DNA of 64,000 nucleotides, from assembly GCF_009858335.1 (NCBI RefSeq), contig NZ_VMSE01000001.1:1860001-1924000 (forward strand), in the 5' to 3' direction. The stretch's first letter is position 1; every line of letters begins with the position of its first letter. This DNA comes from Methylovorus glucosotrophus. GTDB taxonomy: Bacteria > Pseudomonadota > Gammaproteobacteria > Burkholderiales > Methylophilaceae. Made by a program: the position numbers and the translations under genes. The notes under the pieces are model-generated. The model was not told the DNA's origin and did no database searches. It worked only from the letters and a program-made list of their open reading frames with translations. Shown piece by piece: positions 19,515-55,038 of the stretch.

Positions 19515-19548
19515 ATGCTACTTATCCAGCCTGCACTCCATGCGATTT
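19515..19548 (-). promoter_or_regulatory. Phage late promoter, copy 5 (fibre/lysis unit)
   Basis: Reading minus strand: AAATCGCATGGA (19548-19537), 16 nt, then TAGCAT (19520-19515). The transcript would start about 20 nt before the fibre SD. Same layout as four other copies. Confidence 0.8.
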
Positions 19549-19575
19549 GACATTCCAATATGCTAAAGTTACGGG

Positions 19576-19746
19576 ATGACGCATATAGACTATGTGGTAT
19601 ATAAATTAATTGGCCTCGTCCTGCTCGTTTTCTTCGTCCATCTTTTCTACGGTCTGATCACAGGGCGGACCATAGAGGAAGACAGGCGAAGAAATTCAAA
19701 GCTTAATCACGTGAAACAGCCAGAACGGGAGCTGATCGAGAAGTAG
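19576..19746 (+). CDS. Small single-span membrane protein on the opposite strand
   Basis: 56 aa: MTHIDYVVYKLIG, a hydrophobic helix (LVLLVFFVHLFYGLI), then a charged tail (EEDRRRNSKLNHVKQPERE). It overlaps the 3' end of the minus-strand gene by 44 bp. The translation has a convincing membrane-protein pattern, but the SD is weak and no clear promoter is seen. Confidence 0.5.
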   Translation: MTHIDYVVYKLIGLVLLVFFVHLFYGLITGRTIEEDRRRNSKLNHVKQPERELIEK

Positions 19747-21592
19747 CCTCGCCAAGACCGGCCAGAAGGCTGCGGACGACTTCTGATTGCGCGCTGGGCT
19801 TTTGCGCGGCGGCCTGCATGAGATCAGCCGCGGTTTGAGGGTTCAATAGAGATAAAGCAAGTTTCTCTGCCAGCTGGGCATTGGCCTTCTTGTAGCCGAC
19901 ATCCGCCGCCTTAGATACGATATTCCCCACAATACCTGCGGGTGCAAATTTCGTGATACCTGTAGGAATGCCTGCACGCTCAATCATGTTGCTGTATGCC
20001 AGATTCTGCACGGTATTGGAGCCAACTCCGCGCCCAGCCGTTTCGGCATAGTCCTTCATCAGCAAGGATTGCTTGAGGTTATCCAGCATTTTCAGCTGCT
20101 CTGGTGTAAGCACTTTTTCGAGTGTCGCAGTCGGACGCCCGGTCACTCGCTGGGCAGTCTTATCACTGATGGCAGCGGCTGTTTTTGCAGGAGTCAAATT
20201 CCCGCGGAAATCTTTTGATTTGTTCGCTATCTCCGCAATGATATCGGCCTGGTTAAGTGGCGCTGACAGCTCAGCGTACTGCTGATTGGCCTGTAAATAT
20301 TCAGGCAACTGTTTGCCAAGCTCATCCACAAATGCACCACGGGTACCCTGAACAGCGCGAAGCTCATTACCACCGATACCCGTCATTGGCGATGCATTTG
20401 CAATGTCATCAAGCGCCATCTTAAGGTACTGCGCGCCCTGCCCGGTCATATTTTCAAGATCAAAGGTCTGGCCAGCCTCATTGGCCAATTGCTTCGCCCG
20501 GGCAATTGCACTTTGCATGGATGGCCGCTGCAATAGCGCGTCAAGTTCTGGAGTTATCGTCACGGGAGATGCCTTGGCCTGCTCGTACAGGCCCTTTGTA
20601 GCAGTGTCGCGCGCGGTAATAGCTGCCTGCTTGTCTGGAATCAGACCATCAAGGGCTGCCAATCTGGCATCTTGATTTGCCACCTGGCGCAAAGCCATTT
20701 CATTTGTTGCAACGGGATTGTTGGCTACTGCAGAACGCTGCAAGGCAGCAAGGCCTGGATTCTGCGCAACTTCGGCTGCCGTAGGATTTACGCCGGGTAT
20801 GAGACCGTCTGCCGCCTTCAAATTGCGAATGGCGTCATCAGCGTACCCACCGGTTACGCCGTTAAGGGCGCGCCCCACGATAGCATCTTGGCCACCTTCA
20901 TAAAAAGGCTCTATCAAGGATTTTGCGGCGGCAGGAATCTTTGAAATAGTGCTACCTGCAACCCCGGCAACTTTAAGCGCAACGGGGAGAACACCGCCAA
21001 TTACACCGCCTTTTACAGCATCGTCAGGATTAACAGCCCCAGCTGTAGCAGCGCCGTTGATCGTGCCGCCTGCCACGCGAGTGAGGCCGTTTACAATAGC
21101 GCTACCGCCCGGGCTGCCGAGCGTCATGCCACCTGACTGTATCGCGGTCCCAAGTTTGGTTAAACCCAAAGCCTTTGTAGCAGCACCCAGGCCGGCGCCG
21201 ATAGGCATAGTGGCTTCGATGTCCCCAATGAGGCGGCCGGCTTTAAATGAAGTGGTGTCACGATTGGCATTGAGCTCTTTATCAAATTCAGCCTTATTGC
21301 CTTTGGCAAAGCTGCCGCCTTCCTTGCCTTGGACGTAATCAATGACACGATTAATAGGGGTCATTAGGTTCTGGCTGATGTTCATCGCCGAATCAAGCTG
21401 GCCCTTGTAAAAGTCGGCGGCGCGATCGCCAAATGTTCTGGCCGGAGCTTTCTTGCCGCCATCAATGTGCGTAACACCGCGCGAAAACTCTTTTGAGGCG
21501 CGACCTTGTATCTGCTCCGGGGTTATATCATCCGGAACATTGTTGTATTGATGGGTGCTGCCATCGTCAAAGGTAATCGTCACATTGCGCAT
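19703..21592 (-). CDS. Internal virion/ejection protein
   Basis: 629 aa. The N-terminus (TITFDDGSTHQYNNVPDDITPEQ) is a short beta domain seen in phage internal proteins. A long Gly/Ala-rich segment (PIGAGLGAATKAL, GGVIGGVLPVALKVAGVAG) could insert into membranes, followed by helical repeats. It is the last of four consecutive genes in the place where P22 has ejection proteins gp7, gp20 and gp16. It should be carried in the capsid and injected with DNA. Confidence 0.65.
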   Translation of the reverse strand: MRNVTITFDDGSTHQYNNVPDDITPEQIQGRASKEFSRGVTHIDGGKKAPARTFGDRAADFYKGQLDSAMNISQNLMTPINRVIDYVQGKEGGSFAKGNKAEFDKELNANRDTTSFKAGRLIGDIEATMPIGAGLGAATKALGLTKLGTAIQSGGMTLGSPGGSAIVNGLTRVAGGTINGAATAGAVNPDDAVKGGVIGGVLPVALKVAGVAGSTISKIPAAAKSLIEPFYEGGQDAIVGRALNGVTGGYADDAIRNLKAADGLIPGVNPTAAEVAQNPGLAALQRSAVANNPVATNEMALRQVANQDARLAALDGLIPDKQAAITARDTATKGLYEQAKASPVTITPELDALLQRPSMQSAIARAKQLANEAGQTFDLENMTGQGAQYLKMALDDIANASPMTGIGGNELRAVQGTRGAFVDELGKQLPEYLQANQQYAELSAPLNQADIIAEIANKSKDFRGNLTPAKTAAAISDKTAQRVTGRPTATLEKVLTPEQLKMLDNLKQSLLMKDYAETAGRGVGSNTVQNLAYSNMIERAGIPTGITKFAPAGIVGNIVSKAADVGYKKANAQLAEKLALSLLNPQTAADLMQAAAQKPSAQSEVVRSLLAGLGEATSRSAPVLAVSRD

Positions 21593-21598
21593 AGTGGT

Positions 21599-23008
21599 CT
21601 ACCAGTTAGAAACAGAGGGTTCTTTTTTACCTGACTCAATCGAAGTCTTTGGCGCATCAAACTCTGAAAAATCCAGCGGTGGCGCATCGTAATTCCGGCG
21701 CAGGTTTGCAACCTTTGCTTTGCGAATGCTGATAGCTCGATTGTTGATGTTCTGGATTTCCTGCAGGCGCTTCGCCACTACCTTCGGGTCATTAAGATTG
21801 GTCAGCAACTCATTCCAGGCGCGCTGGGCATCGCCATCGGTTTGCACGCCTTTATTCAGAAGCAATGAGGAATTCCGCGCCTTTTCCAAGGTGGCTATAA
21901 GTGTCTGGTATCCCTGGCTTGATTCATCGCTGATCCCAAGGGAGTTCTTGGCCCCAGCCCAGAGATTATCCACGGGGCCAAGTTTGATGGTTCCGTCTTG
22001 AACCTGCTTTTGCAAGGCCGCCAAATCAGCATTGGTGCCAGAAACAGCCCCGATTGTCTCCAACTCTTCTTGCTGGAGCTTCAGGGCTGGGGTTGGCAGT
22101 GGTTTGTTGCTGTAGGTCTTGCCATCCGCCGTCGCGGGAGCCTGGCTTACTGGCTTGTTCCGTTCGTTTGCCGTCTTGGCCGTGACCAGCCCGACATTGG
22201 CGTTATTTAAGCCAGCCGCAGAGGTGCGCTGCGCTGCTAATGCCCTCTCGCTGCCAACCTTACTTTGATTGACATCGACTTTGGATCGGCCTATGTCACC
22301 AATATTGAACTGGCCGGTGACATTATCACCGACGCCATTTTCCGAGAAGTCATACAGCGGCTTATTGTCCAGCACCATGAATTGGCGCGCCGCGTCCTGC
22401 AACTGTTCTGGACTTGCGCCTGAATCGCTCAGCTGCCGAAGCTTCTCAAGCTTCCAAACATCGGCCGCGTTACCTTTAGTTGCCGCATTGCGCACAGCAA
22501 CATCTGTGGGCGTCTGAGAGCCAGACAGGAAAGCAGCCTTGTCGGCTTCCTGCAGGCCTTTGTAAATCGTCTCTGGATTGCCTTCACCCGCATAAACACC
22601 CTGCTTGATGGCGCCATAGGTGCGCCGGAACTTGTTCTCAAGCTCGGGGGAGTAGCCTTGTGGCTTCACGTACTCTGGCGTGCTGCTATTGGATAGGTCA
22701 CGCAAACCATCTGGCATGAAGTTTGGCTTATCCTGCGAGCCCAGGCCATAATTGCCACCGCTTTTGAAGCCTTGTACCAAGGCGTCTGCTAGCGGTTTAT
22801 CCACCCCAAGTTGTAATGCCGCAAATTCAGCAGGATCACGCGACAGATCCCGCTGGGCACCTTCTAACTTTGCCCGGCCAAGCTCGTTTTGAGTGCGTAG
22901 CAATTCCGCCTGTGCTGCATCACGCTGCCCTTGGCGATAACCGGTTGGATCATAGGCGCCACTAAGTGCGCGACCGAGACTTAAGCCTAATTGAGAGTTA
23001 GCGGCCAT
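21599..23008 (-). CDS. Internal virion/ejection protein
   Basis: 469 aa, largely helical and soluble. The N-terminus (LGLSLGRALSGAYDPTGYRQGQRDAAQAE) is small-residue rich, followed by coiled-coil stretches. The C-terminal third (AGAKNSLGISDESSQGYQTLIATLEKARNSSLL) is typical of podoviral internal proteins. It lies 6 bp from the next gene in the ejection-protein cluster. Confidence 0.6.
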   Translation of the reverse strand: MAANSQLGLSLGRALSGAYDPTGYRQGQRDAAQAELLRTQNELGRAKLEGAQRDLSRDPAEFAALQLGVDKPLADALVQGFKSGGNYGLGSQDKPNFMPDGLRDLSNSSTPEYVKPQGYSPELENKFRRTYGAIKQGVYAGEGNPETIYKGLQEADKAAFLSGSQTPTDVAVRNAATKGNAADVWKLEKLRQLSDSGASPEQLQDAARQFMVLDNKPLYDFSENGVGDNVTGQFNIGDIGRSKVDVNQSKVGSERALAAQRTSAAGLNNANVGLVTAKTANERNKPVSQAPATADGKTYSNKPLPTPALKLQQEELETIGAVSGTNADLAALQKQVQDGTIKLGPVDNLWAGAKNSLGISDESSQGYQTLIATLEKARNSSLLLNKGVQTDGDAQRAWNELLTNLNDPKVVAKRLQEIQNINNRAISIRKAKVANLRRNYDAPPLDFSEFDAPKTSIESGKKEPSVSNW

Positions 23009-23016
23009 ATCTACTC

Positions 23017-23628
23017 CTATCGATTCATTGCATAGTTACCAACGCCAGGAGCGGCGCCAGTAAGCAACCCACCGGCCAAGCTACCGGTATTGCGAACACC
23101 ATTTAACTGGGTGTTGTAATACCCGCGGTTAACCGCTTGCTTTCCGGCTATGCCCGCCAAGTCTGTATTCAGATTACCCATCAATTCCGATTCGCCTTGG
23201 TACAGATTGCCGTTGGCATTGGCCCGCCCCATCAGCATGGCGCGCTTCATAATGTCGGCTATTGAGTTTTCGCTTGCCTTTTCACGTGCCGCTGCATAGT
23301 CGCTGGACAGATTGCCTTCTGCATACTTCGGAACCTCGGCGCCACCTTCATTGCCGGTAGAATCCTTCAGGCCAGCCAGAAGCTTCTCGGTGTTGGTGTC
23401 GGCGGATTGTTCATAGCGATCAGCACGCGCCGTTGGATCATAGGTCTTCGCGGTGAAATCGGTAATCAGGTTTCCTTTTTCCTTGGAAAGTCGCGCATCG
23501 GCCTCTGCCGCTTGGTTAACAATCTTTTGCTGACGATCTGCCGCATCATTGGCAGATTCCTGCTGCAGGTAGGTTCCAGCTCCCGCCACCGCCGTTGTAA
23601 GTAATGCCGCTTCTGCTCCGGTGCACAT
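23017..23628 (-). CDS. Internal virion protein candidate
   Basis: 203 aa. It begins MCTGAEAALLTTAVAGAGTYLQQ, a small-residue helix, then has a polar helical middle and a Gly/Asn-rich end (GSLAGGLLTGAAPGVGNYAMNR). The pattern resembles small podoviral ejection proteins such as P22 gp7 in position and length, not clearly in sequence. Confidence 0.6.
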   Translation of the reverse strand: MCTGAEAALLTTAVAGAGTYLQQESANDAADRQQKIVNQAAEADARLSKEKGNLITDFTAKTYDPTARADRYEQSADTNTEKLLAGLKDSTGNEGGAEVPKYAEGNLSSDYAAAREKASENSIADIMKRAMLMGRANANGNLYQGESELMGNLNTDLAGIAGKQAVNRGYYNTQLNGVRNTGSLAGGLLTGAAPGVGNYAMNR

Positions 23629-23636
23629 ATTGCCTC

Positions 23637-24359
23637 CTAGCTAAATTTGCTTGAGCTACCGTTGTAGCTGCTATTGTTGTTGTAGTAAGGTTTTGCGCTG
23701 TAAGCAGTGCTGTAACCCGGCGTTGCCGCACCGCTGTATCCAGCGTTATAAGCTTGCTGCTGCTGGGTAGCGCGAAGAGCATCAAAGAAACCTGCCAGGC
23801 TCGCAGTGCTAGCCTCGTCAGCAGCGGCTTTGGCATTATTCGACATGCCTTCATAAGCCTGCTGCGCGGCCTGATCCGCTGTTAAACCGGCTTGAATGGA
23901 TGTGACAATCTTTTGTCTGGTTCCAGTATCAGCTGACCTGGCATTATTGGCTGCCTGAATGCCAAGGTTATTGGCGCGTAAAACGCCCTGGTTAAATCGA
24001 TCGGTTACCTCAGCATTCGCATCCACATCGCGACTGCCTCCGGATAGGCCCTGGCGAGCCAACTGGAAATTCAAGTCACGCCCGGTGATATCGCGCTCTT
24101 TGTTGAGGTCCACCATGGCGTTATTGGTGAAATCAGTGGCAACCTTACCGTATAGCTTTTCACGTTCGGCTTTTGCTTCGCTATTATCTGAGTCAGCGCC
24201 GAATATTTTATTGACCTGGGCAATTGCTGCCGCAATGCGTCTATCTTCAGCGGCTTTTCGTTCGGCCGCGCCGCCGTCGCCACCACCGCCCCCGCCGCCT
24301 CCATAAAGGGTGAAGGAACTAACTAGACATGGGATAAATTTATGAAGAGAAAGGAACAT
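23637..24359 (-). CDS. Internal virion protein candidate, Gly-tract N-terminus
   Basis: 240 aa. A hydrophobic start is followed by GGGGGGGGDGG, a long charged coiled-coil (AERKAAEDRRIAAAIAQVNK) and a Tyr/Asn/Ser-rich tail. It is the first gene of the ejection-protein unit, directly after a late promoter. Translation could also begin further in; the first 20 residues look unusual. Confidence 0.55.
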   Translation of the reverse strand: MFLSLHKFIPCLVSSFTLYGGGGGGGGDGGAAERKAAEDRRIAAAIAQVNKIFGADSDNSEAKAEREKLYGKVATDFTNNAMVDLNKERDITGRDLNFQLARQGLSGGSRDVDANAEVTDRFNQGVLRANNLGIQAANNARSADTGTRQKIVTSIQAGLTADQAAQQAYEGMSNNAKAAADEASTASLAGFFDALRATQQQQAYNAGYSGAATPGYSTAYSAKPYYNNNSSYNGSSSKFS

Positions 24360-24386
24360 GAGCGCGGCTCCATTTTTAATGACTGC

Positions 24387-24420
24387 AAGATAACAGCAGC
24401 ACCGCTACTCCATGCGATCA
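24387..24420 (-). promoter_or_regulatory. Phage late promoter, copy 4 (ejection-protein unit)
   Basis: TGATCGCATGGA (24420-24409), 16 nt, then TATCTT (24392-24387). The first two bases of the upstream element diverge, because they form part of the stop codon of the preceding GNAT gene. Confidence 0.7.
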
Positions 24421-24855
24421 GGTCATCGTCTTGCAGAAAATCTCGCCAACAGGCTTGAAGCCAAGGGCTTGGTAAAGTCTGGTTGCATTGGGATTGCCAG
24501 TGCTTATGCCGGGCCGGATTTGAACAGCCCCCATCATCGTGCACCAATCCTCGAAGCGCTTGATCATCTTGACCGCCATGAGCCCATTGCGGTGCTCTGG
24601 CTCGATATAGAGGCTGTAATCTATGCCAACCAAGTCATTGCTATACCAAGGGCGATATACATCGCCCAGCATGGCCCCGACAATGGCATCATCCTTTACG
24701 GCAACAATGAAGAACCCTGCTGCATGCAGGGTATGGCACATGGCTTCCACCTTCTCATAGGAGTAATCAAGATCCTTGAAGCTTGATTCGGCATGAAGCC
24801 TAGCGCCAATCTCGGCCACACGTGGGATATCTGCGATTTCACCGAATCTGATCAT
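24418..24855 (-). CDS. GNAT-family acetyltransferase within the virion operon
   Basis: 145 aa with a GNAT fold: FIVAVKDDAIVGAMLGDV, then DYSLYIEPEHRNGLMAVKMIKRFEDW containing the acetyl-CoA loop (RNGLMA), and the C-terminal GNPNATRLYQALGFKPVG. It sits between the stabilisation protein and the ejection proteins. Such enzymes are found in many podoviral structural operons; the substrate is unknown and it could modify a host or virion protein. Confidence 0.8.
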   Translation of the reverse strand: MIRFGEIADIPRVAEIGARLHAESSFKDLDYSYEKVEAMCHTLHAAGFFIVAVKDDAIVGAMLGDVYRPWYSNDLVGIDYSLYIEPEHRNGLMAVKMIKRFEDWCTMMGAVQIRPGISTGNPNATRLYQALGFKPVGEIFCKTMT

Positions 24856-24857
24856 GG

Positions 24858-26267
24858 CTACATGGGCCCGAGCGTGTCGAAATAGTAGGTGAGCTGATGT
24901 AGCTCAAAATCTTCATCAGTCGTGTTTGTCAGCACCGGTGCAATATTCGTGGCCAGCAGCTCAACCGGGTACATATAGCTGCTGCGGGTATCGCCTTGAA
25001 CTGTTACTGGCGGGTCGGTGATCAACGTAGTATTGCGCGGGTCGAATCGATGAGAAATTTGGCATTCTCCAGTAACTACGGCATCCATGCCATGGATATG
25101 CTTGAGCATGCCAGGCTCTTGGAAATCCAGATAGGCCAGCTCTATAGATACGGTATATAGCTCACCATCGTCTGTCTTAACGTCACGGTCTACCTTGTAG
25201 ACATCATCACCGCTGCGGATATACAACTCCGCATTCAGCTCGTCTATATAGTCAAGATCAAAGGGGAACTCATAGACCGACCATGCAGAGACCTTTGATG
25301 TACGGCTGAAGGTGTAAACCATGGCCTTGTTGCCTGAATAGAGCCAGAACTGGCCGCCGCCGCGGTAATACTGCGCGCGCGGATTACCCAAGTCGATATA
25401 TGCAGCCTTCAGAAGCTCGCGATCAATCGGTGATCCGACATCCGCATCGATCAAGTTTGTAGTGACATCCTGCCTGGTAATCGTCCGGACACCCGCAGGG
25501 CTGAAGAAAAATACATCACCGGCCATGTTGGCGTGGCTGTATGGATAGACTGAGCCCACATCTACGGCTTGCTCGAAAGCGTTTTTGGCAGGATCTACAT
25601 CGACTGCCCAGACCTGGGCGGAATCTGGGAAGAAAACAACCAACTTGCTTGTGTAATAACCAAGTGCGGTGGACAGGTTGCTCCCGGCCTGCTGAAGTCC
25701 AACGGGAAGAAAGCCAGCATCATTGGCCGTGGTCCAGTCGCGAGGTGCATTTGTCTTGCAATATCTGACCGTGTCGCCATTAACCCCAATGGACCATATC
25801 TTAGAGCTGATCTTAATGACTTGCTTGGTGTTTGGGCAGTTTACATCCGCGATGTGAGTTGCCCCGGGAGCTGCGCCATCAAGATAATGATGCCGGATTG
25901 ATGCGTCCGTGTACTCTACCGAGGCGTACATGAACCCATTGAAAATATCAGCAAAATGTACCTTGCTTAGGTCAAGTGCCGCACTCGTGTTATGCCGCAC
26001 ATTATTTGCCTTGAATAAGGTATTGGCGTGATTTATGGTTGAGGTGCCGCCGTAAAACGTGTGCAGCTTTCCACCGCCGGCAAACAGGCCTGTAGTGCCT
26101 GCCTCAAGGGTGGTAACTTTGGTGGTTCCTGGGCGCTTCCGAATGGTTCTGCCCTCGGTGGTATACGCGTTTTTCAGAACACGAAGGCGGTTCGCATCTG
26201 AAGTTGATGCGCCCTTTCGTAGGTCAAGGCCGAAATCAAAGCGATCAAACGATATGCGACGAGGCAT
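24858..26267 (-). CDS. Head-completion/DNA stabilisation protein, P22 gp10-like
   Basis: 469 aa, close to the 472 aa of P22 gp10. It opens with PRRISFDRFDFGLDLRKGAS and is rich in beta-propeller-like strands (VFFPDSAQVWAVDVD, GDVFFFSPAGVRTITRQD). It would form the tail hub that plugs the portal after packaging. Its order after the adaptor gene matches P22 (gp4, gp10). Assignment rests on length, order and fold pattern. Confidence 0.7.
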   Translation of the reverse strand: MPRRISFDRFDFGLDLRKGASTSDANRLRVLKNAYTTEGRTIRKRPGTTKVTTLEAGTTGLFAGGGKLHTFYGGTSTINHANTLFKANNVRHNTSAALDLSKVHFADIFNGFMYASVEYTDASIRHHYLDGAAPGATHIADVNCPNTKQVIKISSKIWSIGVNGDTVRYCKTNAPRDWTTANDAGFLPVGLQQAGSNLSTALGYYTSKLVVFFPDSAQVWAVDVDPAKNAFEQAVDVGSVYPYSHANMAGDVFFFSPAGVRTITRQDVTTNLIDADVGSPIDRELLKAAYIDLGNPRAQYYRGGGQFWLYSGNKAMVYTFSRTSKVSAWSVYEFPFDLDYIDELNAELYIRSGDDVYKVDRDVKTDDGELYTVSIELAYLDFQEPGMLKHIHGMDAVVTGECQISHRFDPRNTTLITDPPVTVQGDTRSSYMYPVELLATNIAPVLTNTTDEDFELHQLTYYFDTLGPM

Positions 26268-26268
26268 G

Positions 26269-26931
26269 CTATACCTGTTGGTCAGCCGTCACGTTGTCGT
26301 AAGGACCGTAAACCGGATCTCGCTTGCTCCACAGCGTTTTTCCGCGGTAACGCTGTTTCACTTTTATCAGTAGCGCATCAAGTTGACTGGCGTAGGTCTG
26401 GGCATCAGGCTGACGGTAATGCGCCTTGGCATTGGAAAGTGCATGCAGAAAAACAATACCATCGGGCAGGCTTAACCTATCCGTATCGACAACCAGGGGA
26501 GCCAATACACGGATGTATTCAAAGCGTAATTGGTAGTCTGCTGAAGGTGGAACCGGCCATAACTCAAGCTGGTCCCGGCGCTCATACTTCATTGGCACGT
26601 TACCGGAGGCTATGCCGCGATCCGTTTCATTGATGCCTTCGCGCAACGGTATCCAGCGACCATTCCAGTACACGCTGATACTGATAATCCGATCAACATT
26701 GCAGTCAATTGGATAGTCATAGAACTGCTGGTCAGCGCCGGTATTCCGGATTTCCGTTGACTTGAGTTCCAGCCAGTCAACGTGAGGGTAAAGCTGCTCT
26801 TGCGCATCCCTGATCATGCTATCAATCAACTGTGAGTTGACGACGCCGGCCTGCCCTGCCATGCCGAAGCCAAGCCGAGTCTGGATATCAGACCGGACAG
26901 AACCCAGGGTGCGCTTGAGCGGGAGCGCCAT
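26269..26931 (-). CDS. Portal-tail adaptor, P22 gp4-like
   Basis: 220 aa. The N-terminal helices (RTLGSVRSDIQTRLGFG, IDSMIRDAQEQLYPHVDW) and the beta insert (QQFYDYPIDCNVDRIISISVYWNGRWIPLREG) follow the plan of podoviral head-to-tail adaptors that bind below the portal ring. It overlaps the upstream gene's stop by one base and lies next to the stabilisation gene. Confidence 0.7.
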   Translation of the reverse strand: MALPLKRTLGSVRSDIQTRLGFGMAGQAGVVNSQLIDSMIRDAQEQLYPHVDWLELKSTEIRNTGADQQFYDYPIDCNVDRIISISVYWNGRWIPLREGINETDRGIASGNVPMKYERRDQLELWPVPPSADYQLRFEYIRVLAPLVVDTDRLSLPDGIVFLHALSNAKAHYRQPDAQTYASQLDALLIKVKQRYRGKTLWSKRDPVYGPYDNVTADQQV

Positions 26932-27335
26932 TATTCAGCTGCCTTGGCTTCTTCAATGGCGGTAGTGAGCTTTTCAATACCCCAGTTCTTATTTGCCTTG
27001 ATACCGAGAGCCAGCGCTTCAGCCAGAAGAGCTTGCTTGTCATCACCGACAACCGGGCCAAAGTCAGCTTCAAACTCTGACAGATTGCGCCAGACACGAG
27101 TTGTCGGGTTTGGCTCATCGCCATTGCCGCGATAGTATTCTTGCAGGCGCACATACTCATCTTCGGTATCAAAGGAGCCTTCAGCGATAGGAGGGGCGTC
27201 ATCAGTCACCTCCACAGCATCCTCGCCCAACTGCATACGCAGCACTTCAACTTCATGGGGGAAGATGGTGACAGGGGTTTTGCTGCCTTCGCCACGCTTT
27301 ACCAGCGCCACAACATAGGGAAGAGTTACTTTCAT
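26931..27335 (-). CDS. Minor structural protein with HeH/SAP-like C-terminus
   Basis: 134 aa from ATG 27335, which has GGAG 6-9 nt upstream; 16 further in-frame codons lack an SD. The first part is beta-like (VTLPYVVALVKRGEGS), the middle acidic. The C-terminal DDKQALLAEALALGIK-x4-WGIEKLTTAIEEAK has the helix-extended-loop-helix pattern seen in small phage proteins next to capsid genes. Confidence 0.6.
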   Translation of the reverse strand: MKVTLPYVVALVKRGEGSKTPVTIFPHEVEVLRMQLGEDAVEVTDDAPPIAEGSFDTEDEYVRLQEYYRGNGDEPNPTTRVWRNLSEFEADFGPVVGDDKQALLAEALALGIKANKNWGIEKLTTAIEEAKAAE

Positions 27336-27362
27336 TTTGGTTCTCCAGTTACAAAGGGAATA

Positions 27363-27380
27363 GGGCCGGTTTCCCGGCCC
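27363..27380 (-). terminator. Hairpin after the major capsid gene
   Basis: GGGCCGG-TTT-CCCGGCCC-type stem in the gap between the capsid stop and the next start. With no T-run it would act as an attenuator or mRNA-end stabiliser, separating the highly expressed capsid from downstream genes. Confidence 0.5.
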
Positions 27381-27386
27381 CATTTG

Positions 27387-28445
27387 TTACGCTAGAGCCA
27401 GCACAGCGTTGCTGTTACGCTTGCCGCAACCCAGACCGAACTTGCTGGTCATAGCGAAGTGGTATGTGTACTGGTCGATTGGGCGACCTGGATAACGCAT
27501 ACGCATAAAGTCTTCGCTGTCGCGGTGCAGCTGAATGCCGCCGCTGGTCTCTGCGGACAGGTTCAGCATGTAGCAACGCTTGGCCCATGGAATGGCAGGA
27601 GCGGACAAGCCGAAATTTGTGTCAAAGTCGGGCACATAGGTCAGCGGGATGCCATCAAACTTCAAGGTGTCTGTGGCCATGTCGATAGACAGCTTGGAAC
27701 CGCCGCCATAGGTAACCTGGGTGACGTTAGCAGCGATCACTGCATTGCGCAGGGCGTCATAAAACGCAGAGCCCACGAAAATGTGAGTGAAGCGGCCCTT
27801 GCGGCGTTGAATATCACGCTTGGATTGCTCCAGCGCATCGAGCAGCACAGCCAAGCTGGTACCCAAGCCTGTGCGCGCAATGTTCTGCCAGTAGGTGTTG
27901 CTTGCAGCGATATTGCCGATAGTGCCGGACGTAGGTGCGGTAGACACAATGGCATCAATGCCAGGTTGCGCATTGGTATATTGGGAGCCATCCAGCCACA
28001 ACAGGCTGTGCACGTGATCTTTGACGCCTTCTTTCAGCGCTGTGAACTGAGACACGATCATGTTTGTCAGCTGGACAGCTTCGCTTGCCGTGGCAGTGGA
28101 TTTGCCGATGTCATCATTGACCTTGATGCCGGCGCGCAGCAACTCATCCTCGGACAGCACAAAACCGTCATGGTGATTCATCCAGTCCCACTTGGATAAA
28201 TCATTCGGATTGCGGCTGTTGTAGGTTACGCGGCCATTGCCAGAATAGAGCTGGCCATTGGCGTCATTGGATTTGAAGATGTTGATGGTGAAGCCATCAA
28301 TACCGCCAACGATGTCTTTGGCCTTTGGCGTCAGGGCATCCAGCAAAGGACGCTCAACGTTCATCTGATCAACGGGGGTGTTCTTTTGGTAAGCGGTAAT
28401 CGCCACCTTGCCGATACGGGCAATTTCGGTTGCATTTAAAGCCAT
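27387..28445 (-). CDS. Major capsid protein
   Basis: 352 aa, no signal peptide. Segments such as FVLSEDELLRAGIKVNDDIG, VLLDALEQSKRDIQRRKGRFTHIFVGSAFYDALRN and FMRMRYPGRPIDQYTYHFAMTSKFGLG fit an HK97-fold capsid subunit. It follows a scaffold-like gene and the portal, the expected order, and has a strong AGGAG before ATG. No prohead protease is evident, matching a scaffold-dependent podovirus. Confidence 0.8.
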   Translation of the reverse strand: MALNATEIARIGKVAITAYQKNTPVDQMNVERPLLDALTPKAKDIVGGIDGFTINIFKSNDANGQLYSGNGRVTYNSRNPNDLSKWDWMNHHDGFVLSEDELLRAGIKVNDDIGKSTATASEAVQLTNMIVSQFTALKEGVKDHVHSLLWLDGSQYTNAQPGIDAIVSTAPTSGTIGNIAASNTYWQNIARTGLGTSLAVLLDALEQSKRDIQRRKGRFTHIFVGSAFYDALRNAVIAANVTQVTYGGGSKLSIDMATDTLKFDGIPLTYVPDFDTNFGLSAPAIPWAKRCYMLNLSAETSGGIQLHRDSEDFMRMRYPGRPIDQYTYHFAMTSKFGLGCGKRNSNAVLALA

Positions 28446-28534
28446 GGTTACTCTCCTAAACTATGAAATAGGTTCACTTCATGGTTGGGCGAGACCAGAA
28501 CAGCCCTGCGTGGTGACGAATCCACTTACAGTCC

Positions 28535-29584
28535 TTACTCGGCAAGGCCGAGGTCTTGCAGCACAGCTTCTGCAGGTGTGGCCGCAGATGCCGGGCGCGA
28601 CGCGCCAAAACCATTGCCACGCAAAGGCTGTGCTTGTGATCGCTGAGAGCTTCGCTGTGCAGTAAGCGACTTCTTCAGCGACTTGTATTGAATTTCAAGG
28701 ATTCCGGGCCATTGCGAAGGCGGGAACCGCTTGCCGATTTCTTCCAGGTCCTGTTTCAGGTAAGGAAGGATTGCCGGAAAATCAGGATCTGTTGATTGCC
28801 AGCTCTTTTGCAGTGCCTCGACATCAGAAACGGCCTTATCAATCACTTGCGTCTGCTGCTCTTGCAGCTGCCGCTGCTCGTTCATTCCTGCACTTTGGCG
28901 CTGAGCCCTTTCTTGCAGAGAGCGAGCACGAGCCACTTCCAGCGCAGTTGGCTCATCCAACTCAAGATTTTCAACCCGCTGAGCAATATCAGGGTACTGG
29001 TCCAGGATTGATGCGCTGATCTGAATGCGTCGCCCATGTGCGGCTTCAAATTGTCGAATCTGGTCGGCAATAATGGCTTGGAATTTATCCGCATCCCCAG
29101 TCGCCAACACTTGGCGATATTCGGAGAAATTCACCAGGTCATTTGCGGCGTTTTCGTCGCTGAAACCAAGTTGCCGGAGATGGTCAAAGCTTTCCTTGAA
29201 CTGCATCACACTGGCTTCAAGCTTATCGGCGCGTTCCTTTTCTGTTTTGTAGCCCTCGGTCACCTTCCGGAAACGCTCATTGGTGTTCGGGTTACGGGAC
29301 ATCAATGGCTTCAGGTCATCATCCGTGATGGCCTTGTCATCAACGGGCTTTTGTTCAGCAGCTTCATCTGCTGGCTTTTGTTCCTCGGCATTACCTGCGC
29401 CAGCCTCTACATCGGCAGCAGAATCATCGCCAAGGCCAAGCTCAGTCAATACCGCTTCAGAAGGGTCTTCTACAGGTTCATCGGCAGCAGAATCATCAGC
29501 CGATGTGGCATCGGCTTCGCCATCAACAGCCATAAGGGAGAAATACGCGGCCAATCGAAACAGCCATTTGAGGGAAAACAACAT
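28535..29584 (-). CDS. Scaffold protein
   Basis: 349 aa. It has a very acidic N-terminal third (SADDSAADEPVEDPSEA, EQKPADEAAEQKPVDD), then a long helical/coiled-coil region rich in Gln/Glu and a basic C-terminus (SLTAQRSSQRSQAQPLRG) as scaffold proteins use to bind capsid. It precedes the capsid gene. ATG 29584 has an AAAGGTG SD but gives a hydrophobic first 17 residues; ATG 29533 gives a plainer N-terminus without an SD. Confidence 0.75.
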   Translation of the reverse strand: MLFSLKWLFRLAAYFSLMAVDGEADATSADDSAADEPVEDPSEAVLTELGLGDDSAADVEAGAGNAEEQKPADEAAEQKPVDDKAITDDDLKPLMSRNPNTNERFRKVTEGYKTEKERADKLEASVMQFKESFDHLRQLGFSDENAANDLVNFSEYRQVLATGDADKFQAIIADQIRQFEAAHGRRIQISASILDQYPDIAQRVENLELDEPTALEVARARSLQERAQRQSAGMNEQRQLQEQQTQVIDKAVSDVEALQKSWQSTDPDFPAILPYLKQDLEEIGKRFPPSQWPGILEIQYKSLKKSLTAQRSSQRSQAQPLRGNGFGASRPASAATPAEAVLQDLGLAE

Positions 29585-29617
29585 AGGTCGGCACCTTTAT
29601 CTACACGTTTGTGCCGC

Positions 29618-29651
29618 ATTGTGAATCTCTCAAAATCAATCCATGCGATTT
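29618..29651 (-). promoter_or_regulatory. Phage late promoter, copy 3 (scaffold/capsid unit)
   Basis: AAATCGCATGGA (29651-29640), 16 nt, then CACAAT (29623-29618). It follows the portal terminator by about 20 bp, so the scaffold-capsid genes form a new transcription unit. Confidence 0.8.
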
Positions 29652-29672
29652 CTGAATATGCTTAACAGGCAT

Positions 29673-29696
29673 AAAAAAGACGGCCAAGGCCGTCTT
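29673..29696 (-). terminator. Terminator after the portal gene
   Basis: Stem AAGACGGCC/GGCCGTCTT followed on the minus strand by six T residues, 6 nt after the portal stop at 29702. Confidence 0.88.
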
Positions 29697-29701
29697 GAGG
29701 T

Positions 29702-31909
29702 TTAGTCGATAACTACCACTGGAGTGGGTGGGTCATCGACTTCGGGAATTGTCTGCGCTGGAACACTTACCATCATCTGAGCAAGATCGCGCAGGCTTTG
29801 GGCCATGCTGGATATTTCGCTGATTGCTTGGGCCTGCCCTTGCAAAAGCATTGATAGGCCGTCATTTGCCATCTGCTGCTGTTCGGCACCGGTCACGGCT
29901 TGATGCTCTTTCAGGGTTTGCTCACGCTCCTTGATATCCACTTCGCGGCTTTTCAGTTCATAGCCTTGCTTCAAGGTGCTGTTTTCCTGCTGGAGCTGAG
30001 ATACCTGCTGCGACATACCCTGAATCTGCTGTTTCATGGCATTAATGTTCTGCATGACTTCAGGCGGCAATTCCTCCTGGGCGCCCTCTTGCTCACCATC
30101 CTCGCTCTCTGGCTTTTCAGGCAGCCCAAGCAATTGGCGGGCATCAAGGCGTTCATCGAACCGGCGCAACGTTTCGTCCAGCAGGTTGATAATGGTTTCA
30201 GCTGTCTTGTTGTCGCCATTCTGTTTTGCGGCGGTAATCTGCTCGATAGCTTTTTGCAGGAGCGGGAGAAGTTGCAGCCATTGATCACGCTCGCGCATCT
30301 TGTTTGGTTTGGCGGTTGAACCGGCGCGGATACCAACCTCCACCAGGCGGAACATCTGTTCCTGTGAAAGCTGGGGCCATACTGCCTTTTCACCGTAGCG
30401 GCGGGCAATCTCTTCTTGGCTCACATTCTGCAATAACAAATGTGCGGCATACTCGGCCATGTCGGAAAGCCAGTCTTCAAGCACATCCAGATATTCACCT
30501 TGCCGCGATGACATGCCAGCACTCTGGATTTCAGCTTCTGTGGCAGTCTTCGCTACACGTACGGCGCCGCTTGCTGCATCCTGAGAGTTAGATACCTTCT
30601 CAATGTCATAGAGAATGTCTGAAGTCTCATACATCTGTGCGTTGTATGGAATTTCGGGGAGGCTGGCCAGCTGGTCTGCCAATGGTCGCGTCGGGTCCGC
30701 TGAAACACCTATCACATCATCCTTGATGTTGCGGCCATTGATCGCGGATATTTCACTATCGGTGATATCAGACGCCTTATTGATAATGCGAATGGGGATA
30801 TTCTTTTTGCGATGCTCCGAAGCGTTTGTTCTGCGCGTGTTGTACTCGTCCTGCAGCTCAATAAGCTGCTCCACCATGGATTTAGGATCACGAATACCAT
30901 CTACGCGGCGGAATTGGAGCGGGAAGAAGGAATACCACTGCGAACCGAATTTCTCGGGCTGCTGTGGATCTCGTGCGAAGACCGGCACGCCATCACATAG
31001 CGTGTACATGGTCATGTCATCCTTTGACCATACCTCCCATACATAGACGAGCTTGTCATCCTCATCCACGTTGGTTTCTGCGGTCTCTTCATCCTCAGTG
31101 TCACTGATGTACTTCTTAGAACCGCTTGGCGGAGCCTTGCCAAACATGGCTTTGAATTTCCCGACCGTCATGCGCACTCTTTGCGCTATGGCGCCTGCCT
31201 GGCGGTATTCATCAATGTCCCGAATGGAATCGTCCATAATAACGATGTCTTCAACAGGGATGATGTCGATAGCAAGATATTCTGACTCAACAACCTCAAG
31301 TTGCTTTTGCAGAGCCTGCATCTGCTGGCCAAGCTCAAATTTCTTCGCCTCGTGATCAGCGCAATCACCGCCCTGCTCTGAGGTTTCCTTGATGAGCAGC
31401 TCAATACGCATCAGATTGTCCTGGGCATCATTTAGCTGGTTCTTTATAACGGGATCTGTTCTGGTCTCACGGTGCCAGATAACCTTTGCCCAAGCTCGCA
31501 AGGCAGTAAGCGCGCCACGGACGGCTGTTTTGCCGCGAATCTTGAGCTTTGTCTCTTTGACAAAGTAATCATTCAAGGCCTGCTCTAGCGTTTCAGCAAA
31601 CGGCTTGGCGAGCGGATATTCTGCGGTATTGATGCGCTGATTGAGCGTTACGGCTATTTCTGGCGCCTTGGCATAGATGCTCGGCTGGACGGTTTCAAGT
31701 GCCGAACCGATGAGATTGACCCGGACAAGGCCTTTATCATCATCGCCTTCGGGATCGCCGTTAGCATACTCGCGAGCCTTCTTCCAGCTGTCGCGCCGGG
31801 CTTTCATGCCCTTTTCGTATGCCTTTACACGCTTGTGTAAGCGTTTGGCAGCGGCGTTTTGTTCCTCGCCGCCACCATCCTTTTCTTCGTCGATAATTTC
31901 CAGCGACAT
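29702..31909 (-). CDS. Portal protein
   Basis: 735 aa, the usual size for P22-type portals. A DKGLVRVNLIGSALETVQPSIYAKAPEIAV region opens the core; FFPLQFRRVDGIRDPKSMVEQLIELQDEYNTRR is a typical portal core segment. The C-terminal 200 residues are helical and Gln-rich (ENSTLKQGYELKSREVDIKEREQ), like the P22 barrel. It would form the dodecameric DNA gate. It starts 2 bp after the upstream small gene. Confidence 0.85.
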   Translation of the reverse strand: MSLEIIDEEKDGGGEEQNAAAKRLHKRVKAYEKGMKARRDSWKKAREYANGDPEGDDDKGLVRVNLIGSALETVQPSIYAKAPEIAVTLNQRINTAEYPLAKPFAETLEQALNDYFVKETKLKIRGKTAVRGALTALRAWAKVIWHRETRTDPVIKNQLNDAQDNLMRIELLIKETSEQGGDCADHEAKKFELGQQMQALQKQLEVVESEYLAIDIIPVEDIVIMDDSIRDIDEYRQAGAIAQRVRMTVGKFKAMFGKAPPSGSKKYISDTEDEETAETNVDEDDKLVYVWEVWSKDDMTMYTLCDGVPVFARDPQQPEKFGSQWYSFFPLQFRRVDGIRDPKSMVEQLIELQDEYNTRRTNASEHRKKNIPIRIINKASDITDSEISAINGRNIKDDVIGVSADPTRPLADQLASLPEIPYNAQMYETSDILYDIEKVSNSQDAASGAVRVAKTATEAEIQSAGMSSRQGEYLDVLEDWLSDMAEYAAHLLLQNVSQEEIARRYGEKAVWPQLSQEQMFRLVEVGIRAGSTAKPNKMRERDQWLQLLPLLQKAIEQITAAKQNGDNKTAETIINLLDETLRRFDERLDARQLLGLPEKPESEDGEQEGAQEELPPEVMQNINAMKQQIQGMSQQVSQLQQENSTLKQGYELKSREVDIKEREQTLKEHQAVTGAEQQQMANDGLSMLLQGQAQAISEISSMAQSLRDLAQMMVSVPAQTIPEVDDPPTPVVVID

Positions 31910-31911
31910 GG

Positions 31912-32223
31912 TTAGTCGATATCAGACAGAAGAGTAGCTTGGATATTGCCGCTGGTATATGCGGTGACATTGAAGCGGATGAATTGCGCCAGCGTCACTT
32001 GCTGAATGTTGAGGCCGGGGCCGGTAACAGCAGCAGCGCCTGGAGCTGTGCCCCATGTGGAACCATCTTGGGATGTTTGCAGGATGGCAGAGCCAACGAA
32101 TGCACCGCCCGGCGATCCAATAATGGCCGCAACGGTCATACCCGGCAAAAAGCCAGCCTCAGTGGTTGAAATTGTGGCGCCAGCAGCGAGCGCTGCCAGA
32201 ATTGCGGATTGCTTGATTTTCAT
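31912..32223 (-). CDS. Hypothetical protein before the portal
   Basis: 103 aa, Ala/Gly/Thr-rich with alternating strands (LQTSQDGSTWGTAPGAAAVTG, QFIRFNVTAYTSGNIQATLL). It could be a small decoration protein; the composition fits a secreted or virion-exposed beta fold. It shares the late promoter and a 2-bp junction with the portal gene. Confidence 0.6.
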   Translation of the reverse strand: MKIKQSAILAALAAGATISTTEAGFLPGMTVAAIIGSPGGAFVGSAILQTSQDGSTWGTAPGAAAVTGPGLNIQQVTLAQFIRFNVTAYTSGNIQATLLSDID

Positions 32224-32265
32224 GGGATTCTCCTAGCTTGGAATTGACTGTTAACAGCAGTCCAC

Positions 32266-32299
32266 ACTCTAACTACGCCAGTTTTAATCCATGCGATTT
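32266..32299 (-). promoter_or_regulatory. Phage late promoter, copy 2 (portal unit)
   Basis: AAATCGCATGGA (32299-32288), 16 nt, then TAGAGT (32271-32266), followed by GTGTGG as in copy 1. Confidence 0.82.
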
Positions 32300-32315
32300 A
32301 GAGGGAGGTCGAATA

Positions 32316-32415
32316 CCAGCCCCGAAGGGCTGGCGATCTACCCGGCCCCTCCTCAAGGGCCTAGCAGCAAGTTATTCAGGCTTGCCACCTTTTCGGGCCT
32401 AGCTTACCGAAGGCC
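32316..32415 (-). ncRNA. Stem-loop-rich intergenic segment
   Basis: The 323-bp gap 32224-32546 has no minus-strand gene. Four GC-rich hairpins lie in a row: 32396-32415 (GGCC/GGCC), 32367-32385 (GCAAG/CTTGC), 32344-32361 (GGCCC/GGGCC) and 32316-32333, which on the minus strand is CCAGCCC-UUCG-GGGCUGG with a UUCG tetraloop. It may be a terminator array for the upstream unit or a structured RNA. Confidence 0.4.
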
Positions 32416-32460
32416 AGGCACCTGCCGTTGCGGGCGGGTTCTTCTAGTACTTAAGTACAA

Positions 32461-32489
32461 TTGCAATAAATTTCCCGTCTTGCCATACT
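32461..32489 (+). promoter_or_regulatory. Sigma70-like promoter for the small plus-strand gene
   Basis: TTGCAA, 17 nt, CATACT, ending 57 nt before the ATG of the 38-aa ORF. Confidence 0.5.
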
Positions 32490-32546
32490 TCACTAAACGG
32501 CAACAAAGCCGTAATAACTATATGAGTCAGGAAACGGGGAATTACC

Positions 32547-32663
32547 ATGTCAAACACACTGCTGTGGCTGTGTCTTATCGTTATTGTTGCGGGCCTTATC
32601 ATCTTTGGTCTTGTTTCAAAAACGGCCAAAGAACCTATCGAAGATCACTACAAAATCTGGTAA
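32547..32663 (+). CDS. 38-aa single-span membrane peptide (moron candidate)
   Basis: MSNTLLWLCLIVIVAGLI followed by IFGLVSKTAKEPIEDHYKIW: one membrane helix and a short charged tail. GGGGAA lies 6 nt before the ATG and a promoter-like pair is upstream. It is the only plus-strand gene between two late units and its stop abuts the stop of the SGNH gene, so it may be expressed in the lysogen. Confidence 0.6.
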   Translation: MSNTLLWLCLIVIVAGLIIFGLVSKTAKEPIEDHYKIW

Positions 32664-34058
32664 CTAAGTCAGCTTGTACAGTTCAGGATTGCCGATATCA
32701 ATTATTGATGCGCCGGTAGACGCGGCCACTTTAATGGCAACGAAAAACTCAAGCGACGTAATATCCACATCCAGCAACCTTGGCGGAGTTAAGCGCTTGC
32801 CTGATCCTGATTTTTGCGGGTAGGTAATAGTTGGCTCTTCTGTCGTATTTGGCTCGAACATCCCATACATCTGAGCAGTTCCATTAATTCTGTTCGTTGC
32901 GGCCAAGCGATTAAGACCGGAGTTTCCAGATACTTGGAACTCAAACCCTGATTGAATAATGTCACCCTTTGCGACGAGCGCTGCCAGGCCTGTAGTGTTG
33001 GTGGTCTTGAGATAGATCACACTTGCGCTTGCGCCTGCATTAGTAATAGCCAGTCGGATCATATTAGGGGCAAGTGGCGTTACAGTAACTGCTGCATTTC
33101 CTGATGCAACTTGAACATTCCAACCTGCAGGAATATTGCCTGGATTAGTGATTGTTCCAGACCCTGGGGTATTAGTGCCGCCCGTAGTTCCCCAAACATC
33201 CTGTACTAAATTAGCGCCCTTTGTTTTGTACCTTGTGAGGTTAACTTTTTTAGCAATGTTGTTGAACATTGCATAGCCAGATACCTGCGCACCAGACGAT
33301 GTGAAATGAATACCGTCATCAGAGCGCAGCAGATTGGGAAGAGCATCCAAAGCTGCGGATGATGGGTCAACCATTGCACTGTATGTGTCATTCCATATCA
33401 CATTGCTGTACTTCTTGCACATTGACTGCAGGCCAGCATTGATAAGTGGGATAAGGTAAGCGCGGACCTTTGCTCCCGTTGAACCAGATTGGTAAATTGG
33501 ATTGATAGAGCAAATGACAATAATTTTCTTGGAGGCAAGTCCAAGGATTATTTGCTCCATCACTGAGATGATCGTTTGCACCGCATCATTATTTGAAAGG
33601 GTGGAATTTAGGTTATTAATCCCCCCTCTCACTATCGCGCACTCATTTGTATCCGCCGCGGCCAACGGAACCTGGACAGCCAGGATTTCTTCCAGGGTAC
33701 GCCCGCCAATGGCGTAACAGTTAACAATGTCAAACCCGGTCAGGCCATATGCCATCGCCAAGTCGTTATACCAGGCAATTTCAGAGTTTGAGTATGTGCC
33801 AGATGACAAGACGCCACCAGATTGCGGCAACCCATAAGCAATTAGCGAGTCTCCTAAAGCCGATGTTGAGGATTTTGCTGCAATTAGCGACGACCCTCCG
33901 GTAAGCGGAGGGATGGGGTCGGCTATATTGGTAAGAATTGCCGCGCCTTCTGAAATCAACTGATTTGCATTGACATCAGAAAGAGCATTCCCCATCCAGT
34001 CCGTATATAGGCCACGTGGGATAAGCAGCGAGTTAACTTTCAGCACATGGATATTCAT
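32664..34058 (-). CDS. SGNH/GDSL hydrolase-domain virion protein
   Basis: 464 aa. The catalytic blocks are visible: block I ALGDSLIAYG with Ser71, GGRTLEEIL, block III RGGINNLNS and block V DGIHFTSSG with the Asp/His pair. The domain spans about residues 60-270; the C-terminal part is beta-rich. Such esterases in phage structural units deacetylate surface polysaccharide or act on cell envelope. It is transcribed alone from a late promoter, between terminase and portal. Confidence 0.8.
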   Translation of the reverse strand: MNIHVLKVNSLLIPRGLYTDWMGNALSDVNANQLISEGAAILTNIADPIPPLTGGSSLIAAKSSTSALGDSLIAYGLPQSGGVLSSGTYSNSEIAWYNDLAMAYGLTGFDIVNCYAIGGRTLEEILAVQVPLAAADTNECAIVRGGINNLNSTLSNNDAVQTIISVMEQIILGLASKKIIVICSINPIYQSGSTGAKVRAYLIPLINAGLQSMCKKYSNVIWNDTYSAMVDPSSAALDALPNLLRSDDGIHFTSSGAQVSGYAMFNNIAKKVNLTRYKTKGANLVQDVWGTTGGTNTPGSGTITNPGNIPAGWNVQVASGNAAVTVTPLAPNMIRLAITNAGASASVIYLKTTNTTGLAALVAKGDIIQSGFEFQVSGNSGLNRLAATNRINGTAQMYGMFEPNTTEEPTITYPQKSGSGKRLTPPRLLDVDITSLEFFVAIKVAASTGASIIDIGNPELYKLT

Positions 34059-34089
34059 ATGGGCGCTCCGAAGGGTGATTTTCGGTCAC

Positions 34090-34123
34090 ACTCTATCGGC
34101 GGAGCTTCCATTCCATGCGATTT
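34090..34123 (-). promoter_or_regulatory. Phage late promoter, copy 1 (SGNH gene)
   Basis: AAATCGCATGGA (34123-34112), 16 nt, then TAGAGT (34095-34090) followed by GTGTG. It begins 5 bp after the terminase stop. Confidence 0.82.
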
Positions 34124-36668: not shown

Positions 36669-37141
36669 TAACGCTTTCCGGTGGTGACGATATTGATTTG
36701 CGGGATAAGGTCTTTGCCGTCCTTGCCGGTGAGCTCCTGCTTTTCAGTCCACATGGCCAAGTGCTTTCCAAGTAGCTCAAAGCCTCGTAGTACATTTTTA
36801 GCATCGAATGTGAATGCAGGAGCAATCTCTCCAGTTGGGGTTTCGACAAGCACCCGCTCTCCAGAGCGATCAAAGACTGCTTCAGCTTGCCGACAACGCT
36901 CTATTGTTTCCACAATGCCTTTGATGACGTAATCCTGAGTAATCTCAGTCCGCTTTTCACGGTCTTTCATAAGTTCATCGACTTTACTTCTAACGCTAAC
37001 ATTGGCTAACAATCTGGCACCCTGCTCATTCGCCGTCTTCTCGCTATACCCAGCCCTGATAGCAGCCTGTGTTGCATTCAGATCGATGAGGTACTCCTGG
37101 ACAAACATTGCTTGCTTTGGTGTGAGTTTTTTCTCGGCCAT
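36668..37141 (-). CDS. Terminase small subunit
   Basis: 157 aa from ATG 37141, which has AGGAG upstream. The N-terminal LTPKQAMFVQEYLIDLNATQAAIRAGYSEKTA (read in two halves) is the DNA-binding HTH of the Terminase_2 family. It recognises the packaging site and loads the large subunit. The frame runs into the large subunit gene with overlapping stop and start. Confidence 0.9.
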   Translation of the reverse strand: MAEKKLTPKQAMFVQEYLIDLNATQAAIRAGYSEKTANEQGARLLANVSVRSKVDELMKDREKRTEITQDYVIKGIVETIERCRQAEAVFDRSGERVLVETPTGEIAPAFTFDAKNVLRGFELLGKHLAMWTEKQELTGKDGKDLIPQINIVTTGKR

Positions 37142-37145
37142 TCGC

Positions 37146-54847: not shown

Positions 54848-55038
54848 TGGAAACCATGAGCTGCCGCGAAGTGGCCGCCTATCTTGGCTACAGCTACTTC
54901 TATTTCATGCGCGAGATTAAAACGGACGAGTCATTTCCAAAACCGATTCGCCGAAAGACTCTGCACGGGCTTGGACACGCAAAATACGAGAAGGCCGACA
55001 TCGAGCGCTACAAGCAAGGACTCAAGGCAGCGGCTTAA
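54847..55038 (+). CDS. AlpA-like HTH protein, probable excisionase
   Basis: 63 aa from ATG 54847 with AAGGAGGGG upstream. MSCREVAAYLGYSYFYFMREIK is a MerR/AlpA-type HTH, then FPKPIRRKT and a recognition tail KYEKADIERYKQGL. It is the last gene of the PL operon and faces the integrase with 4 bp overlap, so it probably acts as Xis. Confidence 0.7.
   Translation: METMSCREVAAYLGYSYFYFMREIKTDESFPKPIRRKTLHGLGHAKYEKADIERYKQGLKAAA

Follow-up and report, generated by a model that had tools for sequence, protein, structure and literature searches.

A conserved box in place of the -35 element marks putative activator-dependent late promoters of a Methylovorus prophage and its uncultured relatives

What switches on the structural genes of the prophage of Methylovorus glucosotrophus, when the sequence upstream of them does not resemble an ordinary promoter? 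The DNA analyzed here, called the window below, is a stretch of 64,000 nucleotides (nt) (NCBI RefSeq assembly GCF_009858335.1, contig NZ_VMSE01000001.1, positions 1,860,001 to 1,924,000). On the minus strand of the prophage within it, a sequence-only reading had noticed five copies of a motif, each followed at a fixed distance by a -10-like hexamer, and had proposed phage-specific late promoters that depend on a phage activator or an altered RNA polymerase. Our data suggest, with a probability of about 0.8, that the five sites serve a temperate tailed phage as late promoters that depend on an activator, and that they would be read by an 88-amino-acid (aa) protein (37146-37412, minus strand) together with the host sigma70 polymerase.

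The exact 12-mer AAATCGCATGGA is present on the minus strand at 34123, 32299, 29651 and 19548, and a copy with two mismatches at 24420, so that all five copies were found where they had been placed. Both differing bases of the latter fall in the TGA stop codon of the preceding GNAT gene. Exactly 16 nt past the box, as had been claimed, hexamers begin in every copy (TAGAGT, TAGAGT, CACAAT, TATCTT and TAGCAT for copies 1 to 5), and each copy indeed lies right upstream of a gene, with the start codon 46-64 nt away (53, 64, 55, 49 and 46 nt from the box 10-mer ATCGCATGGA). Promoter 1 (ATCGCATGGA-N16-TAGAGT, 34090-34121) precedes an SGNH/GDSL gene (32664-34058); promoter 2, with the same hexamer (32266-32297), a 103-aa gene (31912-32223) and the portal gene (29702-31909); promoter 3, with CACAAT (29618-29649), the scaffold-position gene (28535-29584) and the capsid gene (27387-28445); promoter 4, with TATCTT (24387-24418), which overlaps the GNAT stop codon, a gene at 23637-24359; and promoter 5, with TAGCAT (19515-19546), a fibre-like gene (18393-19490) and the genes downstream of it, all on the minus strand. 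The portal label is taken from the annotation of a phage record with 28% identity, PHROGs giving no match, and the labels scaffold, ejection and fibre are putative. The terminator reported before copy 3 could be located as an intrinsic terminator-like hairpin on the minus strand at 29696-29677, after the portal gene and before promoter 3. The box stands at the position of a -35 element and, as had been remarked, is unlike TTGACA: a scan with the sigma70 consensus gave no match overlapping any of the five sites, and no TTGACA-like -35 there.

What sets the sites apart is that exact copies stand where they do and at a fixed spacing, rather than the abundance of loose matches, as the window contains 68 matches to the 12-mer with up to three mismatches, compared to a shuffle mean of 78, i.e. 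no excess. Of the five exact 12-mers in the host genome (2.9 Mb), four lie within this prophage. The fifth occurrence (L005) overlies the start of an open frame that we take to be ftsB, is without promoter context, and was rejected as a further late promoter. The two-part motif ATCGCATGGA-N16-TANNNT is found four times in the same 2.9 Mb, every time in the prophage, and the reversed control pattern not at all; the motif does not have a similar frequency in the host genome. Site 3 is not among the four, as its CACAAT lacks the first T of TANNNT. When window positions 14001-56100 were scored with a weight matrix trained solely on 31 sites of relatives outside the window, the five sites took the five highest places, with 25.9, 24.7, 21.5, 17.3 and 21.8 bits for promoters 1 to 5; the next best scores are 10.7 bits on the minus and 9.8 bits on the plus strand.

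A search of viral contigs with the portal protein returned 17 loci, the phage of the window itself among them and the rest at 51-60% identity; most of these loci bear the box within new flanks. We read seven longer contigs of these relatives, which are uncultured phages with a guanine-cytosine (GC) content of 42-66%. A box-only search of 16 records with the pattern A[TA]CGCATGG[AG] gave 47 sites, with the near-copies L009, L012, L016, L022, L059, L063 and L127 left out of the set; 36 sites, in 15 records, are upstream of the start of an open reading frame (ORF), at 35-65 nt within an examined range of 35-75 nt. TANNNT is present at offset 16 in 28 of these 36, while every other offset from 4 to 39 has 0-4. 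The hexamer was not part of the search pattern, and nevertheless its position 2 is A in 34 and its position 6 is T in 35 of the 36 sites; these are the bases of the -10 element that sigma70 region 2 reads and flips out. Box positions are invariant or nearly so, partly because the search pattern demands them, and the spacer between box and hexamer is near random. What the relatives keep is mainly the box, its distance to the -10, and the A and T of that hexamer. Among the 11 sites without an ORF start in range, seven keep TANNNT at 16. No box within one mismatch was found in the fragments L060, L070 and L072, which start at or in the capsid gene.

Counts in the family and beyond point in the same direction. 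In 389,185 bases of the family there are 35 two-part matches, whereas shuffled sequences have 0.04 on average and 1 at most; 50 distant loci have none in 534,577 bases, and with the laxer NANNNT the counts are 42 and 1, respectively. Two-part sites with at most one mismatch in the box number 27 on the late strand of eight phages and 0 on the other strand, six of the 27 lying inside GNAT genes. A further 198 genomes from the host's genus, family and order contain nine two-part motifs, one each in nine genomes, compared to ten for the reversed control. A viral-contig match in L023 was rejected as an extra site, since it lies inside an open frame, presumably of an acetyltransferase. L055, a 32.8-kb contig of a Methylibium metagenome-assembled genome, is the sole relative with a named host; four of the ten exact 10-mers in its assembly (4.2 Mb) are on that one contig. 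A chance origin of the five sites is rejected by the host-genome, matrix-rank, family-versus-shuffle and 198-genome counts. Three findings support the proposal of phage-specific late promoters: the motif is conserved in relatives, it is confined to the late strand, and in hosts it occurs at background level. The same counts bear on the idea that the box, given its place, is a -35 element for a host alternative sigma factor, or the site of a host regulator. We regard this as highly improbable, as the two-part motif is found nowhere else in the host genome and at background level in the 198 others, the box is kept among phages of 42-66% GC, and distant phage relatives in which no regulator was seen are also without the two-part motif.

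Which genes carry a box was counted gene by gene in the 130 nt upstream; genes were dropped if their first 40 residues could not be aligned, and the near-copy L063 was counted. The box is present before the orthologue of the 103-aa gene, which precedes the portal gene, in 12 of 14 records (all but the fragment L014 and the distant L134), before the scaffold-position orthologue in 10 of 10, one of these a near-copy, and before the fibre orthologue in 7 of 7, six of them with the -10 A and T at 16. It was not found before portal, capsid or GNAT genes (0/13 each), g203 (0/11), g150, g220 and g469 (0/14 each), the regulator, i.e. the gene for the 88-aa protein (0/11), terS (0/7), terL (0/4) or g629 (0/1), and it precedes SGNH in 1 of 2 and g240 in 1 of 5. 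The capsid count of 0/13 has to be read with G008 in mind, where the capsid gene has a box ATCGCATGGG with TACTCT 128 nt upstream of it, just outside the reach of the count. In distant relatives, a box within one mismatch precedes g220 in 3 of 38 cases and no other gene. The five scaffold leaders that were dropped by the alignment rule (G006, G007, G009, L055, L058) all have the box, that of L058 with ATGCTG at 16, and all 14 scaffold leaders read directly, which had been chosen by the box, open with it. As the boxes are found before the 103-aa, scaffold and fibre genes, but not before genes such as portal, GNAT and terS, they mark the heads of transcription units; the motif search across prophage and relatives that the sequence-only reading had called for thus places the motif at the head of orthologous units. 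The terminase genes (small and large subunits by PHROGs, 34128-37171, minus strand) and the regulator gene are upstream of the first box, and are presumably transcribed from elsewhere.

Is the box necessarily a promoter part? It could also be a repressor operator, or an RNA element for antitermination, processing or translation, and the nearness of 36 of the 47 boxes to an ORF start, together with a further conserved stretch in the scaffold leaders, would suit this. The 16-nt spacing to the A...T hexamer is fixed, however, whereas the distance from box to start codon varies, and the sites contain no TTGACA-like -35 that a repressor could cover, so that we give this possibility very little weight. 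The scaffold leaders (in the window 28535-29649, minus strand) share ACGTG (10/14) and then GGTGCCGAC just before the start codon (11/14). This conservation seems to exceed the needs of a promoter and a ribosome binding site, and perhaps reflects translational control of the scaffold.

The GNAT acetyltransferase gene (24418-24855, minus strand) lies within the structural block and is found in all seven relatives. In six of them (G002, G003, G004, G006, G008, G009) a box-like site with TANNNT at 16 lies inside the gene, whereas in G007 a box is found where GNAT ends, matching the place of promoter 4 in the window. The in-GNAT site encodes a conserved S/R-M-G ... Y-I/V in the protein, and may reflect coding constraint or a moved promoter. 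These sites are counted among the 27 strand sites and, where fitting, among the 35 family matches; one of the 36 ORF-upstream sites (L055 19304) resembles them.

Which protein reads the box? We compared the sense-strand proteins of the window (ORFs of at least 40 aa) with the seven relatives by blastp at an E-value of 1e-4. Eleven have matches in all seven; ten are encoded in the late block, and the eleventh is the 88-aa protein, whose gene is at most 0.5 kb upstream of a terminase gene in the window and in all seven relatives. Proteins encoded further upstream reach four of seven relatives at best. The sequence-only reading had named this protein and a helix-turn-helix protein at 43139 as candidates; presence in 7/7 relatives strongly favours the former, and the latter was rejected as box reader, having no match in the seven relatives (G008 being without an early region). 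The two kinds of factor that it had offered can be weighed as well. A phage activator is favoured; an altered RNA polymerase or phage sigma factor is unlikely, because no such gene is shared, the proteins common to 7/7 being the 88-aa protein and late-block proteins, and because the A and T kept in the -10 fit sigma70 region 2. The box reader is thus very probably the 88-aa protein, judging by its distribution, position and predicted fold.

AlphaFold2 predicts a winged helix for the 88-aa protein, with helices at residues 2-15, 23-30 and 34-47, wing strands at 50-56 and 62-68, and an extra C-terminal hairpin (70-74/77-81); the mean predicted local distance difference test score is 80.4, lower towards the C-terminus. 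A search of a large protein set at an E-value of 0.001 gave 123 related proteins including its own, up to 93 of which were tested against families. In 93 aligned regulators W20, D58 and N61 are invariant, and most have R-x-D-G-H-N-x-V-H in the wing. We could not match the protein to any described family: its Pfam matches, to winged-helix and other models, are all below cut-off, PHROGs and NCBIfam match one or two of the 93 members with weak E-values and no coherent family, PDB sequences yield one chain at an E-value of 0.26 and no coherent match, and tblastn against the 50,697 deposited phage records of INPHARED finds nothing. Structure comparison lists generic winged helices (Zur, Z-alpha, TFE, MarR), with no single telling match. 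P0074, a 153-aa relative, has an N-terminus that we take to be a piece of a terminase small subunit.

The promoters may be real, and yet be read by another phage protein, such as GNAT or a virion protein, or the 88-aa protein may need a partner, as MotA does AsiA. In favour of this, the ten other sense-strand proteins are also present in 7/7 relatives, and the family searches took in seven of them, leaving out 23017, 23637 and 31912. All ten are encoded inside the promoter-driven block (23017-32223), no DNA-binding family passed for the seven, and the protein at 43139 has no counterpart in the relatives, so that we consider another reader or a partner unlikely, though less so than the alternatives above.

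A further argument for the 88-aa protein comes from G007. All four of its boxes begin with AAC instead of ATC (three are AACGCATGGA and one is AACACATGGA), and its regulator carries H at residue 35 of the protein, a recognition-helix position that is K or R in 89 of the 93; among the nine regulators aligned from known phages, it is alone in this. The joint change of box and recognition helix is suggestive of a tie between the two. In G008, G is the last base of the three boxes that are closest upstream of the 103-aa, scaffold and capsid genes, but an ATCGCATGGA without a -10 is also present not far away, at 2504. Loci fetched with the regulator added three new ones: L123, which has a box with TAATCT at 16, L127, which looks like a near-copy of G002, and L134. 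In the 50 distant capsid relatives (26-41% identity; set L071-L121) no regulator was seen in the DNA fetched, to which the search was confined, and a box without -10 occurs twice, which we estimate to be about the chance expectation.

Several observations speak against our interpretation or limit its support. TANNNT fails in 8 of the 36 sites: site 3 of the window, two sites in G008, one in L055, one in L058, and all three in the GC-rich G006 (GAACCT, GACGAT, TGTACT). A weak sigma70-like match (9/12) lies at 32254-32227, about 12 nt beyond promoter 2. L134 has a strongly diverged regulator (31% in A3) and no box in the 673 nt after terL. H at position 35 is also present in the regulators P0118 and P0120, and the box paired with H was read in G007 alone. 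The G008 contig starts just before the regulator, so that early proteins can score at most 6/7. More generally, the link between protein and box is drawn from co-occurrence, position, fold and one joint change, and since regulator and late block are co-inherited in one clade, the co-occurrence is not fully independent.

Together, our data suggest a model for late transcription in this phage. The 88-aa winged-helix protein would probably be expressed from an early or middle operon just before the terminase genes. It would bind the asymmetric box of 10-11 base pairs (bp), ATCGCATGGA(A/T), at -38 to -29 in place of the -35 element, probably as a monomer, as the box is asymmetric and one helical turn long and therefore fits a single winged helix. 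From there, in fixed register (16 bp) with a weak -10 (TANNNT, -12 to -7), it would hold or recruit host RNA polymerase with its main sigma factor, via sigma region 4, the beta flap or both, and the portal, scaffold/capsid, ejection, fibre/lysis and SGNH units would be switched on together. A stronger version, in which a winged-helix monomer of less than 10 kDa by itself replaces the -35 contact of sigma region 4 on unmodified DNA (sigma appropriation by one protein), in a clade of uncultured phages where the box and one recognition-helix residue change together, is a tentative idea, somewhat doubtful at present.

The SGNH/GDSL gene (Pfam; 32664-34123 with leader, minus strand) lies between terminase and the 103-aa gene and is headed by a late promoter copy of its own. 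In the relatives a partial match was seen in G007 only, elsewhere in the genome, and the unit looks like inserted cargo. The terminase large subunit (34128-36668, minus strand) has 846 aa, compared to 463-507 aa in six relatives; a LAGLIDADG domain (Pfam) is inserted after the Walker A GGGK, and the insert looks like an intein. Two DNA methyltransferase genes (38490-39740 and 40186-40932, minus strand) are located in the early region. The gene at 55035-56264 presumably encodes a tyrosine integrase; it is adjoined by a tRNA-Arg(CCT), the region of which is likely the attachment site.

Wider searches returned little beyond the family. The capsid search of 199 genomes gave three matches, its own and two at 32-36%, regulator searches of genomes gave 1/399 (its own), 0/4 and 0/399, and a scan of genome contigs for further prophages gave one locus, L055. 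Word counting in distant capsid relatives (14 loci above 12 kb) brought out no other late motif; this result has little weight, since the same approach picked up the box in the window, yet did not do so clearly in G002 or G004. Literature listings, with most subscription papers out of reach, returned nothing relevant on a winged-helix phage late activator, the letters of the box or phages of this host group.

For this phage clade, the late regulon is now defined in sequence terms by a box, a spacing, five target units and one candidate activator, and late transcription units can be read from sequence in uncultured phages. The 88-aa protein is small enough for direct biochemistry, and as the box covers the -35 zone, it offers a simple setting to ask how a minimal activator replaces the contact of sigma region 4.

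How does this compare with known systems, as described in the excerpted sources? The middle promoters of T4 are similar in that the box of a phage factor takes the place of the -35 and acts together with a -10 of sigma70 type, but the MotA box is centred at -30/-31, whereas the box here, at -38 to -29, has its centre near -33.5 with the hexamer at -12 to -7 (PMC6755090). AsiA remodels sigma region 4 in T4, while no second shared early factor was found among our seven relatives, and MotA has a double-wing domain and serves middle genes, in contrast to an 88-aa winged helix and late genes (PMC6755090). As for homology to MotA, PHROGs and PDB gave no coherent sequence match, and the fold comparison listed generic winged helices. 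P1 Lpa is likewise one activator for many late promoters (11 in P1), but its site is a 9-bp inverted repeat, not an asymmetric box at -35 (PMC10695390). P2 Ogr and P4 Delta also serve several late operons, each with an activator site (PMC3931495); that site is TGT-N12-ACA and the proteins have a CX2CX22CX4C zinc finger, whereas the 88-aa protein is without cysteine. Mu C, again a phage activator of several late promoters, overlaps the -35 at Pmom, but is a dimer and binds upstream of the -35 at its other late promoters, unlike the arrangement here (PMC4461284). RinA/Ltr of staphylococcal phages drives one transcript that spans the packaging, structural and lysis genes, from a promoter upstream of the packaging genes, whereas here five promoters are downstream of terminase, and no box precedes terS (0/7) or the regulator (0/11). 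GafY/GafZ of the Caulobacter gene transfer agent resembles our case as phage-derived activation at a poor -35 via the housekeeping sigma factor, but GafY binds far upstream and needs IHF, and GafZ binds a palindrome between -35 and -10 (PMC11150451). By these descriptions, membership in the Lpa, Ogr, Mu C, RinA/Ltr or GafY type does not hold for any of them. Having found no description of it, we consider this late-gene switch apparently undescribed; the promoter class is real, and its general kind is known: as in activator-dependent, sigma70-type phage late promoters, a conserved box stands in register with a -10 before late units.

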